Source: Gemmatimonadaceae bacterium (GTDB taxonomy: Bacteria > Gemmatimonadota > Gemmatimonadetes > Gemmatimonadales > Gemmatimonadaceae). From it: a stretch of 39,896 bases of DNA. The stretch is taken from contig JACVCT010000007.1 in the NCBI GenBank assembly GCA_016741895.1, positions 1 through 39,896 of the forward strand, written 5' to 3'. Of this stretch, positions 19,620 through 37,355 are shown in pieces (position 1 is the stretch's first letter; every line of letters starts with the position of its first letter). The notes beneath the pieces were generated by a model that was not told the origin of the DNA, searched no databases, and saw only the letters and a list, made by a program, of their open reading frames with translations. A program made the translations under genes and the position numbers.

Positions 19620-21131
19620 ATGAGTCTGTACGCTCGGCCCGTCGAAAGCGATCCCACCAAACCGCAGGCGCGGCGCTCGGACCCGTTCCGGGTGCTGCGG
19701 ACCCACCGGAACTTCCGCCTGTTCTGGACAGGGCAGACGGCCTCGCTCATCGGCACCTGGATGCAGACCATGGCCGTGGGCTGGCTGTCGCTCGAGCTCT
19801 CCAACTCGGCCTTCGTGGTGGGACTGGTGGCAAGCATGGGGGCGCTCCCCATCGTGCTCTTCAGCATGCACGCCGGCGCGCTGGTGGACCGGGGCAACAA
19901 GCTGCGCATCGTGCGCATCACGCAGACGCTGTTTCTGCTGCAGGCCCTGGTGCTGTTTGCTGTGACGCTCAGCGGCCATGTGACGGTGGGGCTGCTGCTG
20001 GCGCTGTCGCTGGTGCAGGGCGTATTGAGCGCGGTGGAGATCCCGGCGCGGCAGAGCCTGATCATTCAGCTGGTGGGACGGGAGGACCTGCAGCCGGCCA
20101 TTGCGCTCAACTCCAGCGGGTTCAATCTGGCCCGGGTGGTGGGGCCGGCGGTGGGGGGGGCGGTCATTGGGAAGCTCGGCATCGCATGGTGTTTTGGGTT
20201 CAATGCTTTGAGCTTCGGTTGGGTGTTGTGGGGGCTGGCGCGGATTGGAACGGCAAACGGTGAAACAGCAAACCGCGACAGCGGTGGGTCGGCAGCCGCG
20301 GGGTTCGAAACGGCCAACGGCGATAGCGCGGCGCCGGAAGCCTTTGCGCCGGAAGCCATTGGGGCAGAAGCCTCAACGGCAGGGACTGCGGTTGGGGCGG
20401 CGGTTGGGGCTTCTGGGGTTGAGGCTTCCGAGCATGAAGGCATCCGGCGTGAGGGCTCTCGCGGTTTGCCGTTTCGCAATGCGCTGTCGGCAGATGGCTA
20501 TCGCAGTTTCCAAACCATCCTGCGGCAGACATCGGCAGACGCATGGGACGGTCTTCGGTACCTCTCCCTCCCCGGTCCCGTGCGCGAGCTGCTGCTGCTC
20601 GTCACCATCGGCGCCATACTCGGTGGTCCCTTCATTGCCCTCATGCCCGTGGTTGCGCGGGAGCAGTTGGGGCTCGGGGCAGAGGGCTACGGTGCCCTGC
20701 TGGCCATGGTGGGTATCGGGGGACTGATCGGCGCCCTGCTCGTGGCCGGCCCGGTGTCGCACAAGCCCCACAAGGGCCGCGTGCTCATCGGGGCGGCGCT
20801 GGCCTTTCCGCTGCTTCTGCTTGCCTTTGCCCTCACGCGCACGCCATGGCTGGCCTATGCGCTGCTGCTGCTCACGGGCATGGCCATGATCATGTTCAAC
20901 TCGCTCAGCAACGGTGTGCTGCAGTTGCTGGTGGACGAACGCTACCGCGGCCGCCTCATGGCGTTCTACTCGCTGGTGTTCGTGGGCCTGTCGCAGGCGG
21001 TGGGTGCACTGGCCCTGGGCGCGCTGGCGCGCATGCTGGGCGGAGGACCGGCCATTGCGCTGTGTGCGCTGGTGCTGGCGGTGGCGTCGGGGGCGGCGTG
21101 GAGGAGGGGCATGTTCTGGCGGCAGGTCTGA
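19620..21131 (+). CDS. MFS transporter (EntS/2A0121-like) carrying a repeat-derived insertion in its central loop
   Basis: FRLFWTGQTASLIGTWMQTMAVGWL, LVDRGNKLRIVRITQ, 12-TM pattern; about residues 210-297 are low-complexity and derive from palindrome copy A. Confidence 0.88.
   Translation: MSLYARPVESDPTKPQARRSDPFRVLRTHRNFRLFWTGQTASLIGTWMQTMAVGWLSLELSNSAFVVGLVASMGALPIVLFSMHAGALVDRGNKLRIVRITQTLFLLQALVLFAVTLSGHVTVGLLLALSLVQGVLSAVEIPARQSLIIQLVGREDLQPAIALNSSGFNLARVVGPAVGGAVIGKLGIAWCFGFNALSFGWVLWGLARIGTANGETANRDSGGSAAAGFETANGDSAAPEAFAPEAIGAEASTAGTAVGAAVGASGVEASEHEGIRREGSRGLPFRNALSADGYRSFQTILRQTSADAWDGLRYLSLPGPVRELLLLVTIGAILGGPFIALMPVVAREQLGLGAEGYGALLAMVGIGGLIGALLVAGPVSHKPHKGRVLIGAALAFPLLLLAFALTRTPWLAYALLLLTGMAMIMFNSLSNGVLQLLVDERYRGRLMAFYSLVFVGLSQAVGALALGALARMLGGGPAIALCALVLAVASGAAWRRGMFWRQV
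20249..20510. repeat. Compound palindromic repeat, copy A (inside MFS gene)
   Basis: aacggcaaacggtgaaacagcaaaccgcgacagc .. gccggaagcctttgcgccggaagcc .. ggggcttctggggttgaggcttccg .. ggctatcgcagtttcc; same core as copies B-E. Confidence 0.8.
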
Positions 21132-21408
21132 GAAAAGCAAACGGCGACAGCTGAACAGCAAACGGCGGCACAGCCAACAGCGAAACGGCCAACTGCGGCA
21201 GCCCTATCCGGCAGCCTGCATGCTCGGCAGCCTCAATGGCAGAAGCCCCAACTGCAGGACCTGCGGTTGAGGCTTCTGAGTTGAGGCTTCTGATGTAAAG
21301 GCTCCCGGCGCGACGGCTATCGCCGTTGGCCGTGTCGTGCTGCGGCTGTCGCAGTTGGCTGTTTCGCTGTTGGCTGCTCCGCTGTTGGCTGTCGCTGTTT
21401 GCTGTCGT
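21132..21408. repeat. Compound palindromic repeat, copy B (fills gap between convergent stop codons)
   Basis: agcaaacggcgacagctgaacagcaaacggcggcacagccaac .. gcagaagccccaactgcaggacctgcggttgaggcttctg .. ggctatcgccgttggccgtg .. gctgttggctgtcgctgtttgctgt. Confidence 0.85.
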
Positions 21409-23526
21409 TCAGCCCAGCGTGAGCCCAAACCGCAGCGTCCTTCCCGGCTGCGGCAGCCCGCACTGATCGTACACCGTCGCGTTGCTCACATTGTCCATCG
21501 CCACCAGCGCCGTGAGGCGCTGCAGCAGCCCGCGTCCACGCAGCGTGAATGTGCGCGTGATGGCCGCGTCGCCCACCGTCTGCGCGTCCAGCTTCACCTG
21601 GCGCCCGAGGTCGGGATGCTGGCAGTACTGCGCGCCCGTATGGCGGGTCATCGCGCTCGCGCGGAAGCCTTTCATGAGCGGCGAAATGAACGCCAGCGAC
21701 GCGCGCTGCTCGGGATTGCGTTCCGCGTAGCGGTCGCTGGCGTTGGTGATGCTGCGGTCCTGCACCCGAATGCGCTGCAGCGTCACGTCGCCCGTGATGG
21801 TTGCGCCGCGCAGCGCCGCCGGACTGTAGCTCAGCAGCGCCTCGGCGCCGTGACTACGGATCTCGTCGCGGTTGATGCGACGGAACAGACGGTTGGGCAG
21901 GGTCACGCGCACCACCGCGTCATCAAGGCGGTGAGCAAAGCCCACCAGCTGCAGTTGCAGACCGCGCGCCGCAAAGGCCCCACCGTCGAGCGTCACGCCG
22001 CCCTCAAAGCCCAGCAGGGTCTCGGGGCGCAGGGTGGGATTGGGGTCGAAGCGGTTGAGTGCGCCGCTGTAGAGTTCACGAAGCGCGGCAAAACGCGCGC
22101 GCTCGCTGGCCGAGGCGTGGAGGCGAATGCCGTCGTTGATACGCAGCGTGGTGCCCAGACGCCAACCGGTCTGTGTGAGGGTGCCCAGTGACTCACGCCC
22201 GCCGCTGCGTGGCGTGCTCGCGCGGTCGTGTACCACACCACCACTGAACAGCACGCGCTCGTGCACCGGCACATCGATCTCCGTGCCGACACTCGTGAGA
22301 CGCTGCTCGTAGCGCGTGGCCACTGACGCGGGATTCTCTGCGGCCATGGTCTCGTCGTAACGCACCCGACTGTCGGTGGCGGCCACACGCAGTTGCATGT
22401 TGCCGGGCAGCGAGTGTGTGCCTTCTATGCGCGCGATGTCGGTGGTTTCCGCGCCCAGCTCACGCGTCGTCACCCTGGCGTAGTCACGATTGGCATAGGT
22501 CTCGATTTCGAGATCCTGCGTGGTGCGGCCCGCACTTGCTGACAGCGTGCCATACCCCAGCGGCGTCTGACGCACGCCGCTGCCGGCCGTGAGCAGTCCC
22601 AGCGCGCGCGACTGCGCGGGGTAGCGCCAGTAACGCGGCGACGCGATGTGCTGCTCCGGTGCCACGCCACGCTCGGCGGTGTAGCCGGTGGCCGTGAAGC
22701 CCACATAGGCGCCGGATGGATTGTCCCAGCGCAGCGCGGCAAAGCCGTCGAGCTGTGACTGATCGGTGTTGGTGCGCAGCCGCGTGTTGCGGAGATCACC
22801 CGGATCGGCCGCGCCACCGGTGAGGCCATTGCCCGGATTGCCGCCCGAACGCGCAAACCCGTCACGCGCGCGCGACGACACCCCACCGCGCACACGCAGC
22901 GTACCGCCGCCCAGCGTGAAGGGCTGCGCCACAGCGGCCGAGAGCACGCGGCTGCCGTACTGGTCGATGCCGGTGCCGAGTGTGGCGCTGCGGGAGAGTG
23001 GCGCCATGCCTCCCGCGCGTCTGGGCAGCGGGGCGTTGAGGTCGAGTCGGATGACACCGCCCAGCGTATTGGCGCCGCCCAGCAGCGTGGCGAGGCCGCG
23101 CACCACGGTGATCTGCTCGATGCCGGTGGTGGGCAGAATGGACGGGTCCATGCGCGAATCCCAACCCACCGAGAGCGGCAGGCCGTCGAGCAGCCCGGCC
23201 GCCTGACGCGAGTCGCTGCCGCGCACACTGATTTCCGTTTCGCCGCGCGAGTTCTGCCTGACCAGCACAAAGGCCGTCTGACGCAGCACGTCGGCCAGCG
23301 CCGGCGCGGGCTGCAGCGGCACAGGCAGCGAATCCGGACGGATGACCACGGCCGTGGCACCACCCGTCACCGATGGTGCGCGCGAGCCACGCACGGCCAT
23401 GGGTTCAATACGGCGGGCGGAGGTGTCGGGCGTGCTGCGGGGCTGCGGACTACGCTGCTGCGCGACAAGCGCAGCGGGGACGAGCAGAGCCAGCAGGGTG
23501 GGGAAAGAAACCAGAGGTCTGCGCAT
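21409..23526 (-). CDS. TonB-dependent outer-membrane receptor
   Basis: Signal peptide plus plug domain (VLVRQNSRGETEISVRGSDSRQAAGLLDGLPLS, GIEQITVVRGLATLLGGANTLGGVIRLD) and C-terminal beta-barrel; start likely at MRRPLVSFPTLL. Confidence 0.88.
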   Translation of the reverse strand: MRRPLVSFPTLLALLVPAALVAQQRSPQPRSTPDTSARRIEPMAVRGSRAPSVTGGATAVVIRPDSLPVPLQPAPALADVLRQTAFVLVRQNSRGETEISVRGSDSRQAAGLLDGLPLSVGWDSRMDPSILPTTGIEQITVVRGLATLLGGANTLGGVIRLDLNAPLPRRAGGMAPLSRSATLGTGIDQYGSRVLSAAVAQPFTLGGGTLRVRGGVSSRARDGFARSGGNPGNGLTGGAADPGDLRNTRLRTNTDQSQLDGFAALRWDNPSGAYVGFTATGYTAERGVAPEQHIASPRYWRYPAQSRALGLLTAGSGVRQTPLGYGTLSASAGRTTQDLEIETYANRDYARVTTRELGAETTDIARIEGTHSLPGNMQLRVAATDSRVRYDETMAAENPASVATRYEQRLTSVGTEIDVPVHERVLFSGGVVHDRASTPRSGGRESLGTLTQTGWRLGTTLRINDGIRLHASASERARFAALRELYSGALNRFDPNPTLRPETLLGFEGGVTLDGGAFAARGLQLQLVGFAHRLDDAVVRVTLPNRLFRRINRDEIRSHGAEALLSYSPAALRGATITGDVTLQRIRVQDRSITNASDRYAERNPEQRASLAFISPLMKGFRASAMTRHTGAQYCQHPDLGRQVKLDAQTVGDAAITRTFTLRGRGLLQRLTALVAMDNVSNATVYDQCGLPQPGRTLRFGLTLG

Positions 23527-23615
23527 GCGGCGGGGCTGGGAGTGTGCTGCCTCCAAGCCTAGTGCGCGCACCTAAACGCCCGATTAATGATTCTGCTCGT
23601 TCCTCTGGATCTTCA

Positions 23616-24009
23616 ACTGACTATCACGGATTTCGCGGACAGCCCACGGAAAAAGCAGGACCGCAGCTCCCGAGTCCTGACCCTGCATTAATGAGTGTCG
23701 GTGCAGAAGCCGGATCGTCAACAGCTCACGCAGAGAACTGCAGGAGAACCGCAGAGAGCGCAGAGGAGTCGATCGTCTACGGATTGACTTTCATGTTTAA
23801 TCCGTGTGGTTTCCGCCCAATCCGCGTCATCCGCAACAAGGCAGTTCGACCCAAACGGCTTCTCTCTGCGCCCTCTCTCCCTCCCATTCTCTGCTTGAGC
23901 TGTTAACAATCTCGCTTTAGCAACAAGTGTCGGTGCAGCAGCCGGGTCGTCAACTGCGCAGTTCTCCTGTGGTTTCCTTTGTTGTCCGCGGAATCCGTGG
24001 TAATCAGTC
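23616..24009. repeat. Second-family palindrome (CACGGATTTCGCGGACA) split by a nested repeat-rich insertion
   Basis: Left arm actgactatcacggatttcgcggaca...agcagga (23616-23660); right arm ctcctgtggtttcctttgttgtccgcggaatccgtggtaatcagtc (about 23964-24009); internal imperfect direct repeat gtgtcggtgcagMagccggRtcgtcaac. Confidence 0.75.
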
Positions 24010-24031
24010 CAAGCGATGCCCGCCGAGCGCG

Positions 24032-25477
24032 TCAGTACTCGTCGCGCTTGCGCCGCGATTCGCGCTCGGGCCGCGTGTACATGCCCACGTCGGAGCGCGA
24101 GATGCGCCGACGCGCCACGAGTGCCTCGAGCACCAGTTCGCAGGCCACCACCACCAGTGCATCGTCGTCACGCGGCGCGAGACCCACGGCGGTGACGAGA
24201 TCGACAAGGCCGGGCACGAGATCGAAACCCTTGCGCACCAGATCCACCGCCATGTCGTCGGCGATCTGCAGCAGGTTGCCCTGCTCGAACCAGATCACGA
24301 TGCTGTCGGTGTCGAGATCCCCCGCGCGCGCTTCGAGTGTGGCGTGACAGGCGCGGCGAATGAGTTCGCGCGCGATGGCCGCCGCACCGACGAGTTCACC
24401 CTCGTACTCGAGCTCCATCTTGCCGGTGATGGCCGGCAGTGCGGCATACACGTCGCCCAGACGCGGCACGGCCTCACGGTCGCCCTGACGCAGCGCGCGG
24501 GACTCGGCGTTGGACACCACGTTCTCGAGCGTGGTGATGGGCATGCGCTGCGACACGCCGCTGCGCCTGTCGATGCGCTTGTCCTCGCGCGCCTCGAAGG
24601 CCACGCGCTCCACCACTTCCGACACGAGATCGGGCACGCGGATTTCCACGCTGCCGGTGCGCGCCGTCCACGCTTCCTGCTGCGTGATGGCCACGCCGAG
24701 ATCGACGACTTCCGGATAGTGCGTGATGATCTCGCTGCCGATGCGATCCTTGAGCGGCGTGATGATCTTGCCGCGCGCCGTGTAGTCTTCGGGATTGGCG
24801 GTGAAGCAGAGCAGCACATCGAGGGCGAGGCGCACCGGATAGCCTTTGATCTGCACATCACCTTCCTGCATGATGTTGAACAGACCCACCTGCACCTTGC
24901 CGGCAAGATCGGGCAGCTCATTGAGCGCGAAGATGCCGCGGTTGGCGCGCGGCAGCATGCCGTAGTGAATCGTGAGCTCGTCGCTCAGCAGGTGCCCACC
25001 ACGCGCGGCCTTGATGGGGTCCACGTCGCCGATGATGTCGGCCACCGTCACGTCAGGCGTGGCGAGCTTCTCCACGTAGCGCTGCTCGCGTGCCACCCAG
25101 GCAATGGGGGTGTCGTCGCCATGTTCGTCGATGAGCAGGCGCGCATAGCGGCTGATGGGGCGGAACGGATCGTCGTTGATCTCACTGCCCGCCACCACCG
25201 GCATGGCCTCGTCGAGGAGGGTCATGAGCGCCCGCAGGATGCGCGATTTCGCCTGACCACGCAGGCCGAGCAGGATGAAGTTGTGCCGTGCCAGCAGCGC
25301 ATTGACGATCTGCGGCATGACCGTGTCTTCATATCCAAGCACCCCGCGGAACAGGGGCCCGCCATCCTGCAGGCGCGCGATGAGGTTGCGGCGGATCTCT
25401 TCCTTGACGGATCCGGGCCGGTTGGCAGCGTAGCCGGAACGTTTCAGGGCGCCGAGGGTGTCAGGAAGTCGCGTCAC
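24032..25477 (-). CDS. MoxR / Mg-chelatase ChlI-like AAA+ ATPase
   Basis: NFILLGLRGQAKSRILRAL, GIFALNELPDLAGKVQVGLFNIMQEGDVQIKGYPVRLALDVLLCFTANPEDYTARGKIITPLKDRIG. Confidence 0.88.
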   Translation of the reverse strand: MTRLPDTLGALKRSGYAANRPGSVKEEIRRNLIARLQDGGPLFRGVLGYEDTVMPQIVNALLARHNFILLGLRGQAKSRILRALMTLLDEAMPVVAGSEINDDPFRPISRYARLLIDEHGDDTPIAWVAREQRYVEKLATPDVTVADIIGDVDPIKAARGGHLLSDELTIHYGMLPRANRGIFALNELPDLAGKVQVGLFNIMQEGDVQIKGYPVRLALDVLLCFTANPEDYTARGKIITPLKDRIGSEIITHYPEVVDLGVAITQQEAWTARTGSVEIRVPDLVSEVVERVAFEAREDKRIDRRSGVSQRMPITTLENVVSNAESRALRQGDREAVPRLGDVYAALPAITGKMELEYEGELVGAAAIARELIRRACHATLEARAGDLDTDSIVIWFEQGNLLQIADDMAVDLVRKGFDLVPGLVDLVTAVGLAPRDDDALVVVACELVLEALVARRRISRSDVGMYTRPERESRRKRDEY

Positions 25478-25602
25478 AGGTCCAAAACGGTGAGAAGTGG
25501 AGCGCCGGGCATGGGACCGACGCCTTCCGAAGCTGAGAAAATGCTTGGGGTGTAACGGTTTGCGGATCGCAGGCTGAGGTGATTCTTAGCACCACCTTTC
25601 CC

Positions 25603-25630
25603 TTGACAGGGTGTGACCTGCCCGTAGTTT
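25603..25630 (+). promoter_or_regulatory. Putative sigma70-type promoter for small lipoprotein
   Basis: TTGACA - 16 nt - TAGTTT, about 93 nt upstream of ATG 25723. Confidence 0.5.
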
Positions 25631-25643
25631 GGAGGTGCAAGAT

Positions 25644-25694
25644 CCCCGTCGGCACATCCGCCGAGGGGGCCGTGCGCTTTTCAGGCCGCACGGC
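25644..25694 (+). promoter_or_regulatory. Structured 5' leader: two adjacent hairpins
   Basis: CCCCgTCGGC-acatcc-GCCGAGGGG followed directly by GCCGTGCG-cttttcaggc-CGCACGGC. Confidence 0.5.
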
Positions 25695-25722
25695 GCAAAC
25701 ACCGCCCCGTTGAGGTTACTCC

Positions 25723-25911
25723 ATGAAGCGCATCGCCCTCGTCGCTGCTGCCCTCGTGCTCGCCGCCTGCTCCGCCAAGGAAGAGGCCCCCGCCGCTGAC
25801 TCGGCGATGGCTGCTCCGGCTGCCGCTGCCCCGGCCACGGATTCGGCCATGATGGCTCCGCCGGCCGACTCGATGGCTGACTCCACGGCTGACACGACCA
25901 AGAAGATGTAA
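25723..25911 (+). CDS. Small Ala-rich lipoprotein
   Basis: 62 aa MKRIALVAAALVLAACSAKEE with lipobox LAAC; promoter upstream and terminator downstream. Confidence 0.8.
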   Translation: MKRIALVAAALVLAACSAKEEAPAADSAMAAPAAAAPATDSAMMAPPADSMADSTADTTKKM

Positions 25912-25935
25912 TTCGAGACCCCTCGGGGTCTTGTG

Positions 25936-25974
25936 GTGCGGGCGGGAGCTTCTGGCTTCCGCCCGCACTTTTTT
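25936..25974 (+). terminator. Rho-independent terminator
   Basis: GTGCGGGCGGGAGC-ttct-GGCTTCCGCCCGCAC followed by TTTTTT. Confidence 0.9.
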
Positions 25975-26006
25975 CTGTCCCGCAAAGTCCCGACAGGTCT
26001 CGCCGG

Positions 26007-27122
26007 CTATCCGGCCGTGATCGGCGCGCTCTCGTCGAACGGCAGCGCCACCACGCTGGCTTCGATGCTGCCGTCACTTCCCACCACCTGCACACGGTCG
26101 CCAGGCGCCACCTCGCGGCGAATCATGGCCATGGCAATGGGTCCGAGACGCGGTGAGACCACCGTGCTGCGCACATCACCCACGTCCTTGCCCGTGGCAT
26201 CCAGCACGCGGGCGTGCTGCGGCAACACCTCCTGCGCGGTGAGCCCGCGCAGATGGCGATTGACGTGCCCACGGAAGTGCACACGCGCCACGGTTTCCTG
26301 CCCGGTGTAGCAGCCCTTGGTGAAGGAGATGGCGCCGAGCGTATCGAGATTGGCTTCCTGCGGGATGGTGTTCTCGTCCATGTCCACCCCGTAGGCCGGT
26401 CTGCCACCCTCAATGCGCGCCACGTTCCACACCGCCCGACTGCCGCGACGGTAGCTGGAGGCCTGCACAAAACGTGTCAGCGTCTCACGATCCTCCGCCC
26501 GGGCGAGCATGACGAACCCGGGCAGTGCCCCCATGACCGGCGCGCGAATGAGCCGCACCGTGATGCCATCCACGCTCCACGGCGCGTGCCCCCACACGGG
26601 CCACGCGTCCAGCTTCGCGATACGCTCCTGCAACGCGCCGCCGGGGGCATCCGGTTCCGTGTCTGACATCGGGCCCGCTGCCGCATCGCGGCCCAGGCGC
26701 GCCACGGCGTCGGCCGCCTGGTTGCCGTACACCAGCCAGGTGGCCCAGGACTCGTGATCGTCGTGCACCTTGGCGAGGCGCGGATTGATGTACTTGCGCG
26801 CCATGCTCAGCCAGGCCTCGGCGCAGTCGCGGATGACCGTGCAGAGGAAGGTTTCCTCGTCGAGGCGCGCGACGTACATGTCGCAGACCACCTTGCCCTT
26901 GGGCGTGAGCGCCACGGCGTGCAGCCCGCGGCCCACCTCGAGCGCGGCCACGTCGTTGGTGACCAGCCCGTTCAGCGCCTCGGCGGCCTTGGGGCCGGCA
27001 ATGGTGCTCCAGTGATTCTGCGCCTCGAACCACACGGCGCGGCGACGGAGGTCGTGATAGGCCTCCACGTCGTCGGGGCCGAGCGGCGCCGGATAGAGCA
27101 GGTCGGTCGAGTCGATGGGCAT
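26007..27122 (-). CDS. YgfZ/GcvT-like folate-binding protein
   Basis: LNGLVTNDVAALEVGRGLHAVALTPKGKVVCDMYV and KGCYTGQETVARVHFRGHVNR (YgfZ signature); start at MPIDSTDLLYP (27122). Confidence 0.88.
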   Translation of the reverse strand: MPIDSTDLLYPAPLGPDDVEAYHDLRRRAVWFEAQNHWSTIAGPKAAEALNGLVTNDVAALEVGRGLHAVALTPKGKVVCDMYVARLDEETFLCTVIRDCAEAWLSMARKYINPRLAKVHDDHESWATWLVYGNQAADAVARLGRDAAAGPMSDTEPDAPGGALQERIAKLDAWPVWGHAPWSVDGITVRLIRAPVMGALPGFVMLARAEDRETLTRFVQASSYRRGSRAVWNVARIEGGRPAYGVDMDENTIPQEANLDTLGAISFTKGCYTGQETVARVHFRGHVNRHLRGLTAQEVLPQHARVLDATGKDVGDVRSTVVSPRLGPIAMAMIRREVAPGDRVQVVGSDGSIEASVVALPFDESAPITAG

Positions 27123-27240
27123 GGCTGGAAATCTATCGACATGGGACCACCGTCTGCCCGCAATCTTCCCCACGCCATACTGGCCGCGGCGTGATCTTGA
27201 ACTGCTCGCGACACGCGAACCTTGCAGGTAGATCAGATTA

Positions 27241-27260
27241 TGGTATCGTATATGATACCA
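27241..27260. promoter_or_regulatory. Palindromic operator upstream of toxin-antitoxin genes
   Basis: TGGTATC-GTATAT-GATACCA, 12 nt upstream of the PIN gene start. Confidence 0.65.
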
Positions 27261-27271
27261 CGTGAAATCGC

Positions 27272-27697
27272 ATGAAGCCACACGTCATCCTCGACACCAA
27301 CGTTGTGATCGCGGGCCTTCGCTCTCGGCGCGGGGCCGCGTTTGCGCTGCTCGAGCTGTTGGCAGATGGAGCGTATGAGATAAGTGTTTCCGTGCCACTC
27401 GTCCTGGAGTACGAGGCCGTCGCGAAGAGACAGGCGCGCGAACTGGGACTGACACACTCAGACATCGATGCGGTCGTGGATTTTCTGTGTCAGCAGGCTC
27501 ATCACAGCAAGATCTTCTACCTCTGGCGGCCATTTCTCAGAGATCCGACTGACGACATGGTGCTGGAGGTCGCTGTCGAAGCTCAGTGCCGATATATCGT
27601 CACCTTCAACACTCGGGACTTTGCCGGCGTCGAACAGTTTGGAATTCAAACGTTGACTCCGGGTGAGTTTCTCGCCCTGCTACAGGAGGATACATGA
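27272..27697 (+). CDS. PIN-domain putative toxin
   Basis: VILDTNVVIAGLRSRRGAAF, PTDDMVLEVAVEAQCRYIVTFNTRDF. Confidence 0.88.
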   Translation: MKPHVILDTNVVIAGLRSRRGAAFALLELLADGAYEISVSVPLVLEYEAVAKRQARELGLTHSDIDAVVDFLCQQAHHSKIFYLWRPFLRDPTDDMVLEVAVEAQCRYIVTFNTRDFAGVEQFGIQTLTPGEFLALLQEDT

Positions 27698-27930
27698 GCA
27701 CGATCAGTCTCCGACTCCCTGAGTCCTTGCATGCACAGGCGCGACTCCTGGCAGAGCAGGAAGGCATCTCGATCAACCAGTTGATCACGACATCGTTGGC
27801 GGAAAAAATGTCGGCCCTGCTGACCAGCGAATACCTCGAGGCCCGCGCGGAACGAGGCTCGAAGGCTTCGTTTCATCGCGTGCTTAAGAAGGTCAAGGAT
27901 CGACCGCCTGTAGAGGGTGACGAACGGTAA
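27694..27930 (+). CDS. Ribbon-helix-helix (Arc/HicB-like) putative antitoxin
   Basis: MSTISLRLPESLHAQARLLAEQEGISINQLITTSLAEKM; ATGA overlap with PIN gene. Confidence 0.85.
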   Translation: MSTISLRLPESLHAQARLLAEQEGISINQLITTSLAEKMSALLTSEYLEARAERGSKASFHRVLKKVKDRPPVEGDER

Positions 27931-28458
27931 GCTCGCGTACTTGACGCTGCGTACTGGCAACACCAAGTCGTTCCAACCGCTCGTCGATGTGCTGCCAACT
28001 CCGCGCGAAACTGCTGCCGGCTCCGCGGGGCGGATCGTCGGCGCAGCGCAGCAGACCGACCTGCGTCTCGAGTCCACTCAGCGCCAGCAGGGGTTCCACA
28101 TGACGGCGCTCGCTGTCGCTGCGCAGCACGACCCGATGCCCCGACGCGACGGCGTCGCGCAGCGCCGCGAGTCCCTCGGGCAACAGCGGCACGCCGTGCG
28201 CAATGATGCCGGCGTAGAGGCGCTGCGCGCGCAGCAGCACCAGGTCGTGCCGCGTGGGGTCCTGCGGCGCGGGATCGAGCTGTTGCAGCGCCTCGGCCAT
28301 GGCACGGCCGGGCAGCTCGGCGCGCACGAGGTCCTCGCTGAAATTGAAGCCCTCTGCGACAAGCGCTTCACGCAGTGCCGCTGTGCGCGCGGGCAGGGTG
28401 TCGAAGAGCACCCCGTCAAAGGCGAGAATGAGGGCGTGCTGCAGGGGTGATAAGGCGT

Positions 28459-28462
<4 letters not shown>
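27893..28462 (-). CDS. Degenerate HAD-like hydrolase coupled to glcF
   Basis: VNALSPLQHALILAFDGVLFDTLPARTAAL; GTG start overlaps glcF stop (GTGA); motif I reads AFDGVL instead of DxDGxL. Confidence 0.65.
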
Positions 28463-29871
<1,409 letters not shown>

Positions 29872-29876
29872 GGATT

Positions 29877-29918
29877 GGCCTTCACGGCGTGGCCTTCACG
29901 GTGTGGCCCTCATGGCGT
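29877..29918. repeat. 14-bp tandem repeat x3 at the glcE/glcF junction
   Basis: ggccttcacggcgt ggccttcacggtgt ggccctcatggcgt. Confidence 0.85.
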
Positions 29919-31295
29919 GTGCACCACGGTGTCGTTCAACAACTCGGGCGCCACGCGCCAGGGGCTGCAGAGGCCTGCGGGATCGAAGCGGGCCTTCACC
30001 TGCTGATCGAGCGCGGAACGCGGTGCGGGGACAGCACGACCCTGATCCCATGCCACCGCGATGCGATGCAGTGCGCCCTGGGCGGCCGCGTGGTGATACA
30101 GCAGATCGAGTTGGGTGTCCAGCTCGTTCATGGCATCGTGACTCGGTGCGTGATGCGGTACGTCATGCGGCACGTGGTGCGGTACGTGATGTGGTACGAC
30201 CAGACGCAGGCTGCCGCGTTCCACGTGATACTGCCAGCTGGCATCGGGGAAGGTGCGATGCACGGCCTGCACAAAGGGCAGCGCGTCGCTGCGCGGCGTG
30301 CGAAGTCGCAGCACGGCGGCGTTGACGGGCGTGTGGCGCAATGCATCAAGCGGCGAGGGCACGGCCGCAGCGCTGCCTGCGTGGCCTGACGATTCGCCCA
30401 TCGTTGCACTGGCCGATTCGACGGGTGATTCGACGGGTGATTCGACGGGTGATTCGAAAGGCGTGTCGATGTCACCCAGGTCGTCCACTTCGTGCGCGCC
30501 TGTTCCCGCGAGGGCGGCGAGCTGCGCACGCAGCGCCGCCACGCGGGCCGCATTGCCGCTCACGCGCGCCCAGAGGGTGAGCGGCTGACCCGGCGTGTGA
30601 CTGAGCAGCAGGGGCAGCGGCGCGCGCTGCGCGATGAGTGCCGGCAGACTGCCGGCGAGTGCGTCCGCCACGGGCCGCGGCATGGTCACGCGCATGAGCC
30701 GGTCCAGCGGCGGCCGGGCATGCAGTCGCAGACTGAGCTGCGTGATGATGCCCAAGGTGCCGTGCGCGCCCGTGAAGAGGCGCACGAGATCAAAGCCGGC
30801 CACGTTCTTCACCACGCGGCCACCGGCGCGCAGCACTTCGCCGGTACCGTCCACCACCTCGAGGCCCAGCACGAGATCGCGCATGAGCAGATCTCCGAGG
30901 GCCAGGGGCGCCGCAGCAGCGGTGGAGACCATGGCGCCCAGTGTGCTGTCGTCGCTTCCGTAGGGAGCCAGTGCAAACATCTGCCCGTGCGCGGCCGTGA
31001 TCTGCGACAGCTCGCGCCAGGTCATGCCGGCGCCCACCGTGATGACCAGATCACCGGGTTCGTATTCCACGACCCCGGCGTGGTGGCTGCGCACTGCGAT
31101 GGGCTCCGCGTCGGCAAAGGGCCCGCCGCCGTGCAGCCAGGTCCCGCTGCCCACGGGGCGGAAGCTGCGCCGCGCGGCGAGGTGTTCACGCACGAGGTGT
31201 GCGACGGGAGTTGTTGCGTTGGGCATTCCGCTCGTCGTGGCGCTGATCGCACCGCTCATCGCACCGCTCACTGCGTTGCTCATCGCGTTGCTCAT
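29910..31295 (-). CDS. glcE: Glycolate oxidase FAD-binding subunit
   Basis: FAD-binding (FRPVGSGTWLHGGG, GRVVKNVAGFDLVRLFTGAHGTLGIITQLSLRL); start overlaps glcD stop (ATGA). Confidence 0.88.
   Translation of the reverse strand: MSNAMSNAVSGAMSGAISATTSGMPNATTPVAHLVREHLAARRSFRPVGSGTWLHGGGPFADAEPIAVRSHHAGVVEYEPGDLVITVGAGMTWRELSQITAAHGQMFALAPYGSDDSTLGAMVSTAAAAPLALGDLLMRDLVLGLEVVDGTGEVLRAGGRVVKNVAGFDLVRLFTGAHGTLGIITQLSLRLHARPPLDRLMRVTMPRPVADALAGSLPALIAQRAPLPLLLSHTPGQPLTLWARVSGNAARVAALRAQLAALAGTGAHEVDDLGDIDTPFESPVESPVESPVESASATMGESSGHAGSAAAVPSPLDALRHTPVNAAVLRLRTPRSDALPFVQAVHRTFPDASWQYHVERGSLRLVVPHHVPHHVPHDVPHHAPSHDAMNELDTQLDLLYHHAAAQGALHRIAVAWDQGRAVPAPRSALDQQVKARFDPAGLCSPWRVAPELLNDTVVHTP
30146..30199. 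repeat. 12-bp tandem repeat (about 4.5 units) in glcE, encoding VPHH
   Basis: gtgcgtgatgcg gtacgtcatgcg gcacgtggtgcg gtacgtgatgtg gtacga. Confidence 0.85.
30415..30462. repeat. 12-bp tandem repeat (4 units) in glcE, encoding ESPV
   Basis: gattcgacgggt x3 plus gattcgaaaggc. Confidence 0.9.
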
Positions 31296-31301
31296 CGCAC
31301 C
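31242..31301. repeat. 12-bp tandem repeat (5 units) spanning the glcE start codon
   Basis: gctgatcgcacc gctcatcgcacc gctcactgcgtt gctcatcgcgtt gctcatcgcacc, encoding MSNAMSNAVSGAMSGAIS. Confidence 0.9.
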
Positions 31302-32689
31302 ACGCCCGCCCATTCGCGGCAGCTGTGCACGGGCACCACCTTGCCCGGATTGGCGCGGCGCTCCGGGTCGAAGACGCTGCGCAACCGGCACATGGCGTCG
31401 AGGGTGGGCGCGTCGAAGAGCCGGTCCATGTAGCCGATCTTGTCGAGGCCCACGCCGTGTTCACCCGTAATGGTGCCGCCGGCATCGATGCAGGTCTGCA
31501 TGATGTCCTTCATGGCGGCATGCACGCGTGCGTCCTGTTCCTGGTCGCGCGCGTCGTAGGGAATGTTGGGGTGCAGGTTGCCGTCGCCGGCGTGAAACAC
31601 ATTGCACACGCGCACACCATGCGCGGTGCCAATGGCGTCGATACGCGCGAGCACCTCGGGCAGTCGGGTGCGTGGCACGACGGCGTCCTGCACGACCAGC
31701 GAGGGCGCAATGCGGCCCATGGCGCCAAAGGCCTTCTTGCGGCCCTGCCAGAGTCGCAGTCGGTCGGCGGCTTCGGTGGCCACGCGCACCGCGCGTGCGC
31801 CATTGGCCATGCAGGCCTCACGGATGATGGCCACGTCTTCGTCCAGACCCTCGGCGGGGCCGTCCACTTCACAGAGCAGAATGGCCGCGGCGTCGACGGG
31901 ATAACCGGCGGCGTAGATGCTGGCTTCAACGGCCTGGATGGTGGCGTTGTCCATCATTTCCAGCGCGGCGGGCACGATGCCGCTGGCGATGATGCGCGAG
32001 ACCGCGCGCGCGGCGTCGGTGACCTGTGAAAAATCGGCCAGCAGGGTGTGCACGGCGTCCGGCAGGGGCACGAGACGCACGGTGATCTGTGTGGCAATGC
32101 CGAAGCAGCCCTCACTGCCCACGAAAGGGCCCAACAGGTCGTAGCCCTCGCTTTCGCCGTGGGCGTCGCCAAGTCGCACCAGCGAGCCGTCGGGCAGCAG
32201 CACCTCGCACTCGAGCACGTGATTGAGCGTAACGCCGTACTTGAGGCAGTGCGGCCCGCCGGCGTTTTCCGCGACGTTGCCGCCAATGGTGCACACACTC
32301 TGGCTGCTGGGGTCGGGCGCGTAGTGCAGGCCGTACTTGACGGTCTCGCGCGAAAGCCGCGCGTTGACGACACCCGGCTCCACGCGTGCGAGACGGTTGA
32401 CGGGATCGACGTCGAGGATGCGTGTGAGGCGATTGAGGCCGATGAGCACGACGCCGTCGGCGAGGGCACCACCGGAGAGTCCCGTGCCGGCGCCACGTGG
32501 CACGAAGGGCGTACCGGTGCGGGCGAGTTCACGCACGACGGCGATCAGTTCTTCGCGGGTGTCCGGGAAGACGGCCAGCGAGGGAGTGGCATGGTAGCCG
32601 GGCAGACCATCGGCATCGTAGGGGGCGAGAGCGGAGGGGCGGGACTTGACCCAGCGTTCCCCGACGATGGCGGACAGACGGTCGGACAT
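31292..32689 (-). CDS. glcD: Glycolate oxidase FAD-linked subunit
   Basis: TPFVPRGAGTGLSGGALA, VGGNVAENAGGPHCLKYGVT-type FAD site, GEHGVGLDKIGYM. Confidence 0.93.
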   Translation of the reverse strand: MSDRLSAIVGERWVKSRPSALAPYDADGLPGYHATPSLAVFPDTREELIAVVRELARTGTPFVPRGAGTGLSGGALADGVVLIGLNRLTRILDVDPVNRLARVEPGVVNARLSRETVKYGLHYAPDPSSQSVCTIGGNVAENAGGPHCLKYGVTLNHVLECEVLLPDGSLVRLGDAHGESEGYDLLGPFVGSEGCFGIATQITVRLVPLPDAVHTLLADFSQVTDAARAVSRIIASGIVPAALEMMDNATIQAVEASIYAAGYPVDAAAILLCEVDGPAEGLDEDVAIIREACMANGARAVRVATEAADRLRLWQGRKKAFGAMGRIAPSLVVQDAVVPRTRLPEVLARIDAIGTAHGVRVCNVFHAGDGNLHPNIPYDARDQEQDARVHAAMKDIMQTCIDAGGTITGEHGVGLDKIGYMDRLFDAPTLDAMCRLRSVFDPERRANPGKVVPVHSCREWAGVVR

Positions 32690-32712
32690 TGCCGTAATCT
32701 AGGTGGACGGGT

Positions 32713-32973
32713 GAACGGCAAACAGCGACAGCCAACGGCGGCACAGCAAACTGCGAAAGCCAACGGCGACACGGCCAACTGCGATAGCCGTGGCACGGAA
32801 GCCTGTGCGCCGGAAGCCGTAATGCAGAAGCCCCAACTGCAGGACCTGCAATCGGGGCTTCCGGGGTGTGGCTTCTGAGGTACAGGCTTCCGGCGCAAAG
32901 GCTATCGCCTTTGGCCGTGTCGCAGTTTGCTGTGCCGCCGTTTGCTGTTGCTGTTGCTGTCGCTGTTTGCTGT
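32713..32973. repeat. Compound palindromic repeat, copy C
   Basis: gaacggcaaacagcgacagccaacggcggcacagcaaactgcg .. gatagccgtggcacggaagcctgtgcgccggaagcc .. cttccggggtgtggcttctgaggtacaggcttccggcgcaaaggctatc .. gtttgctgtt; abuts response-regulator stop. Confidence 0.85.
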
Positions 32974-33357
32974 TCAGGTCCCCCGGACCCGCCCCACCAT
33001 CTCCTTCAGCGTTGCCAGGTCAAACGGCTTCTGCAGCACAAAGGCGTGTTCCGCCATCACCGACCCTGCCGGCGCATCCGACACCGCGTCGCCACTGGTC
33101 AGGATGATGCGCTGGGCCAGTGCCGGGCGCTCGCTGCGCAGCAGCCCCAGGATGGCCTCGCCGCTCAGATGCGGCAGGTGAAGGTCGCAGACGACCACTT
33201 CATAGCGCTGGTCATCACTGTCGGGACTTTCACGCAGCATGCGCAGCGCCACCTCTCCGTCGTCGGCCTCGTCCACCTGATACTGCTGGCGTTCGAACCA
33301 CCGCTTGAGGGCGAAGCGAATTCCCGCTTCATCGTCCACGATCAACGCACGAGGCAC
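32974..33357 (-). CDS. Single-domain response regulator receiver (CheY-like)
   Basis: MPRALIVDDEAGIRFALKRWF, VVVCDLHLPHLSG, IILTSGD, LQKPFD. Confidence 0.9.
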   Translation of the reverse strand: MPRALIVDDEAGIRFALKRWFERQQYQVDEADDGEVALRMLRESPDSDDQRYEVVVCDLHLPHLSGEAILGLLRSERPALAQRIILTSGDAVSDAPAGSVMAEHAFVLQKPFDLATLKEMVGRVRGT

Positions 33358-33376
33358 TCAACTACTCCGCTAGAAA

Positions 33377-33420
33377 CAGGAAACGGCGACTGCCCGTTCG
33401 TCCGGGTGCCGCCGTTCCTG
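33377..33420. repeat. Imperfect hairpin between response regulator and sigma factor genes
   Basis: caggaaacggcgactgcccg-ttcgtc-cgggtgccgccgttcctg; second short palindrome TGCGGAAATCCGCA at 33434-33447. Confidence 0.6.
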
Positions 33421-33506
33421 AAAGTTAGGCGAATGCGGAAATCCGCACAACGCAATGACTTAGGATGAGCTCGCTTTAACCGTCGCGCTCGAATAGATGA
33501 GCTCGT

Positions 33507-34415
33507 TCAGGCAGCGCCCCAGAAGCCAGCCAAGGCACGGCCATCGGGGGATTCGCGCAGCTTTTCGAAGGCCCGTTCGCGGATCTGCCGGATGCGCTCG
33601 CGTGTCACGCCCATGAGGGCGCCGATGCGCTCGAGGGTCATGGCTTCCGCCCCCTCGTCGAGTCCGTAGTACAGGTAGAGAATCTTGCGCTCACGCGGCG
33701 TGAGATACTTGCGGAACACCCGGTCGATGAACTCCCGCATGAGGCGGAAGTCGGTGCCCTCTTCGATGTCGGCGTGGGTCTCACCGGCAAAGCGCTCGCC
33801 CAGCGTGGAGGCCTCGCGGTCCTGACGGTCGATGGGCGCGTCGAGGGAGACTTCGGTGCTGGTGATCTGCCGAGCCTGCCGCACCTGTTCGAGTGGCTCA
33901 CCCAGCAGCTTGGCCATCTCCTCGTCGGTGGGCTCGCGGTTGAGCACCTGCGAGAGCACCATCTCGCCGCGCGCGAGACGAATGAGCTGCGAGTTCTGAT
34001 TGAGCGGGATGCGCACGCTGCGCGTCTGTTCGGCGAGGGCCTTGAGCACCGCCTGCCGCACCCACCACACGGCATAGGAGATGAACTTGACGCCCTGATC
34101 CGGATCGAACTTGCGCACCGCCTTGAGCAGTCCCTCGTTGCCGATGGCGACGAGCTCGGACAGGTCGAGGCCGTGTCCCTGATACTTCTTCACGTAGCTG
34201 ATGACGAAGCGCAGGTTGGCCGTCACGAGCCGTTCGGCGGCGGCTTCGTCACCCTTCTGGGCCAGGCGGGCCAGACGCCGCTCTTCGGCGGCGTCGGTGA
34301 TCAGCGGCAGCTTTTGGATGTCGTGGAGGTACTGATCGAAGGCGGTGGAAGGAGCGGAACGGAAGAAGCCCTTGGAGCGAGCTTCGGGTGTCCTGGTCGC
34401 AGCTGCTGCCTGCAT
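33507..34415 (-). CDS. RpoD/SigA-family RNA polymerase sigma factor
   Basis: AFDQYLHDIQKLPLIT, GNEGLLKAVRKFDPDQGVKFISYAVWWVRQAV, LERIGALMGVTRERIRQIRERAFEKLR. Confidence 0.95.
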   Translation of the reverse strand: MQAAAATRTPEARSKGFFRSAPSTAFDQYLHDIQKLPLITDAAEERRLARLAQKGDEAAAERLVTANLRFVISYVKKYQGHGLDLSELVAIGNEGLLKAVRKFDPDQGVKFISYAVWWVRQAVLKALAEQTRSVRIPLNQNSQLIRLARGEMVLSQVLNREPTDEEMAKLLGEPLEQVRQARQITSTEVSLDAPIDRQDREASTLGERFAGETHADIEEGTDFRLMREFIDRVFRKYLTPRERKILYLYYGLDEGAEAMTLERIGALMGVTRERIRQIRERAFEKLRESPDGRALAGFWGAA

Positions 34416-34478
34416 ACGTCCTCGCCGAACGTGTCCAGAGGTCCGGGCTCAGGGGGCCCGGTGGGAGGTGGGAGCGCC

Positions 34479-34507
34479 ACTATACGACACGGTTTCCGGA
34501 CGGTCAA
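34479..34507 (-). promoter_or_regulatory. Putative promoter for sigma factor gene
   Basis: On minus strand TTGACC - 17 nt - TATAGT. Confidence 0.6.
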
Positions 34508-34600
34508 TGAAAATTTTCGCGACGGCGCAAATGGGACAGTCCGGCGCCACCTTTGTGACATTTCCGGTCATTTTAACTTAGCAGTGAGGCATGTTCAGCT

Positions 34601-34714
34601 CCAACTGACTACCACGGATGACGCGGACAACAACGAAAAAGCAGGAAGGGAAATCTCGAAATGCCTTTCCTGTGGTTTCTCTTGTTGTCCGCGGAATCCG
34701 TGGTAATCGGTTGG
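34601..34714. repeat. Second-family palindrome, intact copy downstream of aroB
   Basis: ccaactgactaccacggatgacgcggacaacaacgaaaaagcaggaaggg vs reverse complement of cctttcctgtggtttctcttgttgtccgcggaatccgtggtaatcggttgg: about 50-bp imperfect stem. Confidence 0.85.
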
Positions 34715-34726
34715 TGAGGAACGCCT

Positions 34727-35863
34727 TCAGATCGCGTCGAGCGCCTGACGGACAAGGGCGTCGGCCACCGGGCGCGACCAGCGGCCCTCGGCCGGGTCCA
34801 TCTCGCCAAGGGCGAGGGGCAGGGCGTAGCGGGCGGCACCGGCGCGGGCCTTTTTGTCGCCGAGCGTTTCGCGCAGCACGGCGTCCCGGTCCACGCCGGC
34901 GGGCAGGGTGGTGGGCAGACCCACGGCAGTCAGGGCCTCGCGGATGCGCCGGGCCAGCGGTTCGCGCGCCACACCCGAGAGTTCGGCGAGCTGCGCCTCG
35001 ACGATCATGCCCAGGGCCACCGCGTCGCCATGGGGCAGGCGATAGTCGAGCAGCTTTTCGATGGCGTGGGCAATGGTGTGGCCAAAGTTGAGCACCTGCC
35101 GCTTGCCACCCTCACGGGCGTCATCCGCCACCACGGCGGCCTTGATGCGCACACTGTCCGCCACCAGCGGCGTGAGGGCCGCGGCGCGCGCACGGTCATC
35201 GAGCAGCGCGAGACGGCGACCGGTCTCCTCCACCTGCGCAAAATAGGCGGCGTCGGCCAGCACGCCGTGCTTGAGCATTTCGGCCAGGCCTGTGCGCAGC
35301 ACCGCGGGCGGCAGGGTGTTCAGCAGCGCGGTGTCCATGACCACGGCGGCCGGATCATGAAAGGCACCCACGAGATTCTTGCCTGCGGGCGTGTCGACGG
35401 CAGTCTTGCCACCAACTGCCGCGTCGACCATGGCCAGCAAGGTGGTGGGCAGCTGCACCACCGGAACCCCACGCATGAACGTGGCGGCGACAAAGCCCGC
35501 CAGATCCCCCACCACGCCACCACCCAGCGCGAGAATGCTGGTGTCCCGCCCCGCTCCCCAGGCCAGCAGGGCGTCGCTGAGACGGGCCCACTCGGCGCGG
35601 GTCTTGTGCTCCTCGCCGGCGGGCAGAGTGAACAGCGTGCTGCGCTCAGCCGGCGCGATCTGCTGCAGCGCCGCCATGACGCGCGCCGCGTGCAGCGGTG
35701 CCACGACCTCATCGCTGATGACCACGTAGCGATGGGCCGGCGCGTGCTGCTGCACGATGTGGCCCAGCGCCCCGAGTGCGCCCGGGGCGCAGTACACGGG
35801 GTAGGTGAGTGGCAGGGGCGCGAGCGGCTCGACCTGCACCGGCGTGTCCGGCACGTCCGGCAC
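34727..35863 (-). CDS. aroB: 3-dehydroquinate synthase
   Basis: ILALGGGVVGDLAGFVAATFMRGVPVVQLPTTLLAMVDAAVGGKTAVDTPAGKNLVGAFH; LNFGHTIAHAIE. Confidence 0.96.
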   Translation of the reverse strand: MPDVPDTPVQVEPLAPLPLTYPVYCAPGALGALGHIVQQHAPAHRYVVISDEVVAPLHAARVMAALQQIAPAERSTLFTLPAGEEHKTRAEWARLSDALLAWGAGRDTSILALGGGVVGDLAGFVAATFMRGVPVVQLPTTLLAMVDAAVGGKTAVDTPAGKNLVGAFHDPAAVVMDTALLNTLPPAVLRTGLAEMLKHGVLADAAYFAQVEETGRRLALLDDRARAAALTPLVADSVRIKAAVVADDAREGGKRQVLNFGHTIAHAIEKLLDYRLPHGDAVALGMIVEAQLAELSGVAREPLARRIREALTAVGLPTTLPAGVDRDAVLRETLGDKKARAGAARYALPLALGEMDPAEGRWSRPVADALVRQALDAI

Positions 35864-35868
35864 GTCCG

Positions 35869-36414
35869 TTACCAGGTCACCTCGCCGGCACCGGCCCGCT
35901 TGTTGGCGACGCGGGCCAGCATGAAGAGCAGGTCGGAGAGGCGATTGAGATAGATGATGACGAGATGCGGCAGCTCCACCGTGCTGGCCAGATGCACCAC
36001 GCGCCGTTCGGCACGGCGGCAGACCGTGCGGGCGACATGCAGCGCGGCGGCCTTGGGCGTGCCGCCCGGAATGATGAAGCTGCGCAGCGGCTCGAGCTCG
36101 GCTTCGCAGGCGTCAATGGCGCGCTCGAGCTCCGCAATGCGCGCCTCATCGATGCGCGCCTTGAACAGCTGCTCGCGCATTTTCTCGTGATCGGGCGTGG
36201 CCAGCAGGGCGCCGATGGCAAAAAGGTCGCGCTGGATGGGCACGAGGACTTCGTCGATGCGCGGCATCATGTCGATGCTGCGGGCGAGGCCGAGAGAGGC
36301 ATTGAGCTCGTCGACATCGCCATAGGCTTCCACCCGCGGGTGATCCTTGCCCACGCGGCCGCCGCCGAAGAGGGCGGTACCGCCCTCGTCTCCAGTCCGG
36401 GTATAGATCTTCAT
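35869..36414 (-). CDS. Cob(I)alamin adenosyltransferase, PduO type
   Basis: MKIYTRTGDEGGTALFGGGRVGKDHPRVEAYGDVDELNASLG, CRRAERRVVHL, YLNRLSDLLFMLAR. Confidence 0.93.
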   Translation of the reverse strand: MKIYTRTGDEGGTALFGGGRVGKDHPRVEAYGDVDELNASLGLARSIDMMPRIDEVLVPIQRDLFAIGALLATPDHEKMREQLFKARIDEARIAELERAIDACEAELEPLRSFIIPGGTPKAAALHVARTVCRRAERRVVHLASTVELPHLVIIYLNRLSDLLFMLARVANKRAGAGEVTW

Positions 36415-36438
36415 GCCATGGAACGTAACTGGGGGGGG

Positions 36439-36711
36439 AACGGCCAACCGCGGAACGGCAAACTGCGGAACGGCAAACTGCGACAGCCAACCACGGAACG
36501 GCCAACGGCGATAGCCGTGCGTCGGAAGCCTTTGCGCCGGAAGCCTCAGCGCAGGAGCCTCAACTGCCGGGCTGCGGTTGGGGCTTCTGGTTTATGGCTT
36601 CTGGAGTCATGGCTTCCGGGCATTCCGCTATCGCGGTTGGCCGTTTCGCGATTGGCTATTCCGCCGTTGGCTGTCGCAGTTTGCTGTTTCGGTCCTTGCT
36701 GTTCCGCCGTT
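36439..36711. repeat. Compound palindromic repeat, copy D
   Basis: aacggccaaccgcggaacggcaaactgcggaacggcaaactgcgacagcc .. gcgatagccgtgcgtcggaagcctttgcgccggaagcc .. ggttggggcttctgg .. atggcttccgggcattccgctatcgcggttggccg. Confidence 0.88.
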
Positions 36712-37084
36712 CCTCCTCCTCGTTCGCCTCTCGCTCCTCGATCGCGCGAATGAGGCTCACGAGCATCTTGCACACTGCCACCCGCTTGTTTTCGCAGTGC
36801 CAGATGTGCTGCCGCTGTATGGCGCCGGTGCGCTCGAGTACCCGCAGGTGGCTGCCCGCTTCATTCGCCGACGCCAGGGCGAGCCGCAGCTGCCGCTTGA
36901 AGTTCGGGTCGCTGCCCAGATTGGCCGCTTCCGCGACGTTGGCGGAGATGGCCGTCACGGAGCGGGCCAGCTGGCCGCGCACTCCGGGGGCGCGACGGGC
37001 ATTGACCAGCGGCACGACGGACAGCACGGCCACGGCGAGGTCCTCGGCGGCAGAGAGCACGCGGAGATTGCGGGAGTCGCTCAT
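36656..37084 (-). CDS. Four-helix-bundle protein (23S rRNA IVS-protein / S23 family-like)
   Basis: LRVLSAAEDLAVAVLSVV..RRAPGVRGQLARSVTAISANVAEAANLGSDPNFKRQLRLALASANEAGSHLRVL; C-terminal RRNSKDRNSKLRQPTAE encoded by repeat copy D. Confidence 0.7.
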   Translation of the reverse strand: MSDSRNLRVLSAAEDLAVAVLSVVPLVNARRAPGVRGQLARSVTAISANVAEAANLGSDPNFKRQLRLALASANEAGSHLRVLERTGAIQRQHIWHCENKRVAVCKMLVSLIRAIEEREANEEEERRNSKDRNSKLRQPTAE

Positions 37085-37158
37085 GCCCCAGCATGCGCTG
37101 AGAAATGACATGATGTGACATCAGAATGACGAGAGTTGGGACATGGGAACGCATGGGC

Positions 37159-37355
37159 AACAGCCAACCGCGATAGCCGGGGGCTCGGAAGCCTGTGCGC
37201 CGGAAGCGCTACCGCAGAAGCCCCGACTGCAGGGCTGCGGTCAAGGCTTCTGCCCTGCGGCTTCTGGTGTACAGGCTTCCGAGCCCCCGGCTATCGCGGT
37301 TGGCTGTTTCGCAGTTTGCCGTTCCGCTGTTCGGCAGTCGCTGTTTGCTGTTAAC
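37159..37355. repeat. Compound palindromic repeat, copy E, with perfect 38-bp inverted repeat
   Basis: aacagccaaccgcgatagccgggggctcggaagcctgt at 37159-37196 is the exact reverse complement of 37271-37308. Confidence 0.93.

Follow-up and report, generated by a model that had tools for sequence, protein, structure and literature searches.

The window analysed here is a stretch of 39,896 nucleotides from a Gemmatimonadaceae bacterium, which corresponds to contig C30 of a 4.24-Mb MAG (G000; 426 contigs, 91% complete). It carries an MFS transporter gene, whose reading frame is open from the ATG at 19620 to the stop codon at 21131 and matches the Pfam families MFS_3 and MFS_1. A long palindromic element, designated copy A, lies inside this frame, and four further copies of the same repeat family were located in the window (Table 1). 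The initial annotation had described a palindrome copy placed in frame within an MFS transporter whose frame stays open; the intact frame and the matched family copies bear this out, and its coordinates, 20249-20510, were right to within a few bases.

Table 1. Features of the transporter gene, its palindromic insert and the related copies in the window.
Feature	Position	Strand	Evidence or context
MFS transporter ORF, 503 aa, carrying the insert	19620..21131	+	Pfam; orthologues in 92/100 relatives; flank dN/dS 0.08, 0.11
Copy A, in-frame long palindrome supplying ~80-87 residues of the TM6-TM7 linker	20249..20509	+	Palindrome, family matches, fold, empty orthologues, pLDDT
Nested core of copy A	20306..20477	+	Matches copy B on both strands, 71-73%; conserved in G001
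12-nt tandem duplication at the hairpin tip (GCGGTTGGGGCG/GCGGTTGGGGCT)	20388..20411	+	In G000, not in G001; frame kept
Segment 3' of the conserved core, codons 287-307	20479..20541	+	Almost fully replaced between G000 and G001
Copy B, same family as copy A	21132..21412		Flanked by the stop codons of two convergent genes, the MFS gene and one for a TonB-type receptor (21409-23571, -)
Copy C	32713..32993		3' end of minus-strand gene 32974-33357
Copy D	36436..36711		3' end of minus-strand gene 36656-37111
Copy E	37159..37355		Upstream of plus-strand gene ending at 39602

The sequence of copy A forms a nested imperfect palindrome. Its RNA was calculated to fold into one long hairpin of -144.7 kcal/mol (z = -7.3), and none of 200 shuffles was as stable. 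The left edge of the element lies near 20247-20254, while the right edge is either 20478, the end of the segment conserved in the sister species (G001), or 20509, the end of the outermost arm (GGCTATCGCAGTTT). The claim that the element has the same nested core as the intergenic copies is in accordance with the match of this core to copy B, and the best paralogue obtained with copy A as query had an E value of 2e-32 and 73% identity. The full element amounts to 87 codons and the gain relative to most orthologues is about 75-80 residues. The encoded segment contains the peptide FETANGDSAAPEAFAPEAIGAEASTAGTAVGAAVGASGVEASEHEGIR.

The AlphaFold model of the transporter (21 sequences) showed a confident MFS fold with a mean pLDDT of 79.9. 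Values of pLDDT below 50 were confined to the N-terminus and to residues 213-289, which are disordered in the model and occupy the interval between TM6 and TM7 with the helices intact on either side. Both the linker location and the disordered loop that had been proposed for this insert agree with the model. Translation of copy A as part of the transporter frame is predicted to yield a flexible loop some 80 residues long.

The family of copy A was analysed further in the source genome, where seven other strong copies lie nearby at about 70-78% identity. Outside the window, copies F and G were found on contig C390 and copy H on C424, with a match on C179 and weaker pieces elsewhere. A single syntenic region spanning about 32 kb accommodates all eight strong copies. 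On contig C6 of G001 the counterparts of C30, C390 and C424 are consecutive, and G001 has its own eight copies there. The alignment of the eight copies from each species revealed outer arms made of 13-16-bp units resembling AACNGCGAAACAGCC and a conserved inner core (GGAAGCC...CTCAACTGCAGG.CTGCAGTTGGGGCTTC...GGCTATCGC), and the differences in the arms between species come in whole units. The fold of copy B was calculated at -193.8 kcal/mol (z = -14.9). An inversion of the palindrome centre between the species was considered for copies B and G and rejected, same-orientation alignments being at least as good. Copy E was likewise discarded as a second in-frame case, as it is open in frame in G000 yet frameshifted in G001; it probably lies in a 5' UTR. 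No part of the window matched an Rfam family.

The transporter protein was aligned with its G001 orthologue and with 28 orthologues from the genus and family (n = 30). The copy A insert was found only in the G000 and G001 proteins, and the next closest relative, G004, has a different, shorter one. In the other aligned orthologues only a short linker separates TM6 from TM7, so that, in a comparison which the initial annotation had itself proposed, the insert is absent from orthologues without the repeat family. The longer linkers of the G016 and G028 transporters held no repeat recognisable by eye. A search of 30 genus genomes with the insert peptide returned no second convincing in-frame case; the matches in G005 and G016 (36% identity) seem to reflect a composition rich in Ala, Pro and Gly and were set aside.

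The state of the gene was assessed by comparison of G000 with G001. The dN/dS ratio was 0.082 (dS 0.248) for the part before the insert and 0.110 (dS 0.271) for the part after it. Since the insert is present in both species, purifying selection on these flanks acted with the insert in place, and the gene is thus alive with its insert. Every length difference between the two frames is a multiple of three or cancels itself. The G001 frame has an extra 15 nt, which equals one arm unit, the G000 frame has the 12-nt tip duplication, and the segment 20479-20541 holds two mutually cancelling 1-nt indels. Codons 287-307 in this segment, just 3' of the insert, showed a dS of 0.77 and a dN of 0.71, and adjoin the most conserved stretch of the gene. 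A chimeric assembly, or a pseudogene open by chance, is a very improbable explanation of the structure: the window does come from a fragmented MAG, but the same structure stands at the same place in the separately assembled sister species, and the low dN/dS on both sides with no stops and no net frameshift speaks against a dead gene.

The favoured explanation, to which we assign a probability of roughly 0.8, is that copy A belongs to a family of gene-end hairpins and was ancestrally placed in the transporter linker, tolerated there and translated as a disordered loop. Hairpins of this class normally sit directly behind stop codons, where they would either have a function or be carried along at the 3' end of the gene, and most of their spread would be to nearby sites. 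One copy, in the common ancestor of G000 and G001, would have arrived in the stretch that encodes the cytoplasmic TM6-TM7 linker; its length was a multiple of three and, by chance, the required frame was open (roughly one in five frames is free of stops). Among the other seven copies, 8 of 42 frames are stop-free, and an open frame therefore needs no special design; the chance of a landing copy staying in frame may be put very roughly at 6% (open frame multiplied by one third for length). The linker presumably tolerates floppy sequence, so that the transporter would have stayed functional while the element was translated. Later changes in length would have come in frame-keeping units, namely the 15-nt arm unit and the 12-nt tip duplication. 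As a guess, the local families would be explained if templates were switched within one replication fork, from one palindrome to a neighbour.

The rate of evolution of the insert bears directly on this explanation. Over 200 bp the insert is 97.9% identical between G000 and G001, in the top 0.2% of windows from the region (mean 88.5%), and its dS of 0.035 and dN of 0.019 compare with a flank dS of 0.25-0.27. The insert has 2 synonymous differences in 58 sites, compared with 72 in about 327 for its flanks (Fisher p = 4e-4), and inner-core differences numbered 3/131 for copy A against 93/894 in seven intergenic orthologous pairs (p = 0.001; p = 0.008 when the divergent pair B is left out); these comparisons were chosen after the alignment was seen and the p-values are indicative only. 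A passenger is expected to evolve at the neutral rate, yet the insert dS is 0.035, and this low divergence therefore counts against the passenger part of the explanation.

Constraint and short-tract exchange are both possible sources of the slow evolution. It may tentatively be proposed that the insert is no mere passenger and that selection holds its sequence, either for the protein linker or for an RNA or DNA hairpin in the message. Of the eight orthologous copies, copy A has evolved most slowly; at every codon position it also changes less than the synonymous sites of the transporter gene, and it still folds into one long hairpin. On the other hand, its length has changed twice and its hairpin is weaker than that of the intergenic copy B, and with only five substitutions coding and structural constraint are inseparable and the dN/dS of 0.55 within the insert is uninformative. 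A translation pause between the transporter halves would be one role of this kind, itself a speculative suggestion. A rather unlikely alternative is recent exchange after the split of the species, by short-tract recombination between lineages or by conversion from a shared donor. The near-identical tract 20254-20478 stops almost exactly at the element edges, with both flanks about 92% identical, as exchange would leave it; however, so short a tract with such bounds is unusual for homologous recombination, and no near-identical donor copy was found elsewhere in G001 or in the 91% complete G000.

The linker of G004 was examined for its relation to the repeats of that genome. G004 has its own hairpin family, made of GGAAGCG units, behind the transporter gene and at the TonB-receptor gene, and this family is richest in the matching syntenic region (C29:291-308 kb). 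Its transporter linker holds one arm of this family in frame (TVNSGSEGAEAKLRMPTSGSEGGG). A stretch of 54-65 nt of the linker is alike to the G004 hairpin arms with scores of 30-37, which 0 of 1000 shuffles reached, and an independent match to the family had an E value of 6.6e-6 and 81% identity. The likeness to the G000 family is slight, the score for copy A being reached by 14 of 1000 shuffles. The whole syntenic region (window 20249-37355 with C390 and C424; G001:C6:37267-68777; G004:C29:291-308 kb) abounds in hairpins of a single family in each species, that of G004 being different. At G004:C29:306567-307880 (L075) an extra sugar-nucleotide epimerase/dehydratase-like gene, bordered left and right by hairpins of the G004 family, separates the transporter gene from the TonB-receptor gene, where G000 and G001 have a single hairpin; this suggests gene gain or loss between hairpins.

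The in-frame resemblance of the G004 linker to its own hairpins, and hardly to those of G000, favours an insertion older than the split of G004, made in the common ancestor of the three genomes and then replaced by, or converged on, the family of each lineage. We give this somewhat less than an even chance, as the linker in G004 holds one arm only, and two separate insertions into a tolerant linker of a hairpin-rich region would look identical. More doubtful is the fuller proposal that a regional hotspot rewrites the hairpins, and that the family of each lineage was captured in frame by the same linker and then fixed as conserved coding sequence. Because the insert evolves unexpectedly slowly and G004 has another family in this linker, the question of passenger or useful sequence is directly testable.

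The placement of long hairpins was surveyed in 1.34 Mb of sampled stretches from five genus genomes (G000, G001, G004, G021 and G029). The 73 strong hairpins were distributed over convergent gaps (27), co-directional gaps (40), divergent gaps (3), a contig edge (1) and gene interiors (2), the two intragenic ones being copy A and its G001 orthologue. In the same DNA, gaps of at least 100 bp comprised 69 convergent, 175 co-directional and 64 divergent ones; with 3 hairpins for 64 available divergent gaps, divergent gaps are therefore avoided. The median distance to a stop codon was 7-10 bp, the exact distances being approximate since genes were called with a simple codon model. A first-order Markov control gave no such hairpin in 100 kb. 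Long gene-end hairpins of many word families are spread through the genus, at 6-15 per 100 kb, and the sequences differ greatly between species. Long hairpins with other repeated words (CACGGATnnCGCGGA type) lie at 23611-24013 and 34593-34722 of the window, on contig C6 of G001, and in G021 and G029. The end word AACNGC...GCNGTT was present at both ends of 8/12 hairpins in G000, 10/19 in G001, 5/12 in G004, 1/14 in G021 and 7/24 in G029, compared with about 0.2-0.6% of random spots. These ends are common to hairpins with unrelated interiors, hinting at a shared way of making or moving them.

The initial annotation had called the element selfish. The Y1/RAYT transposase (PF01797) was found in none of the five genus genomes, with a positive control in E. 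coli and others, and the model of RAYT-driven REP spread was dropped on this ground; no target-site duplication was seen by eye at copy A, where the site flanks have diverged. The usual place of the family behind stop codons fits a 3'-end hairpin with its own role as well as a parasite, and the description as selfish is therefore not supported.

Several known systems resemble these elements in part. Intrinsic terminators are likewise hairpins just after stop codons, and enriched between convergent genes; the present hairpins differ in their very long stems, their sequence families and the lack of a T-tract at the ends of all 81 hairpins tested. REP, BIME and REPIN elements are also extragenic palindromes that occur in families at gene 3' ends, as observed here, but a REP measures 20-40 bp (PMC3733652) against about 190-310 bp for the present elements, which also differ from the REP/RAYT system in the missing Y1_Tnp gene. 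MITEs such as ERIC, BOX and Correia are small non-coding repeats able to fuse in frame with a gene; the elements here share only the 6-bp ends AACNGC/GCNGTT, and no transposon was found as their parent. A literature search on palindromic repeats in Gemmatimonas found nothing on point.

The closest parallel is offered by the palindromic elements of Rickettsia and Wolbachia, which lie in frame inside ORFs (PMC3767692). Like these RPEs, copy A is a palindromic repeat of more than 100 bp in a preexisting ORF, at a solvent-exposed place, with the frame unbroken, and its presence in a functional ORF is indicated by sequence and model. RPE orthologues may hold a different RPE group at one site, as the linker of G004 does relative to G000 and G001, and the authors of the R. 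japonica study met the same ambiguity (PMC3767692). The habit of the elements is different: RPE-1 to -3 enter ORFs often, whereas frequent insertion into unrelated ORFs was not seen among the 73 hairpins, only the one locus of copy A and its orthologue being intragenic. The phylum is another one, the usual place is right behind stop codons, and the arms consist of 13-16-bp units. The parallel drawn earlier with RPE insertion thus held for the outcome and not for the ORF-entering habit; by analogy, copy A appears to work like an RPE insertion, as a different sort of element with a rarer habit, and neither kinship with nor membership of the RPEs is supported. Most documented cases of in-frame palindrome capture come from Rickettsia and Wolbachia, whose small intracellular genomes make the reasons hard to discern, and a 2024 review considered protein evolution through such repeats conceivable outside Rickettsia (PMC10969869). 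The present case belongs to a free-living phylum of high GC content and combines sites left empty in more than 20 relatives with a living gene and presence in a second species; it indicates that repeats can become protein sequence outside Rickettsiales as well.
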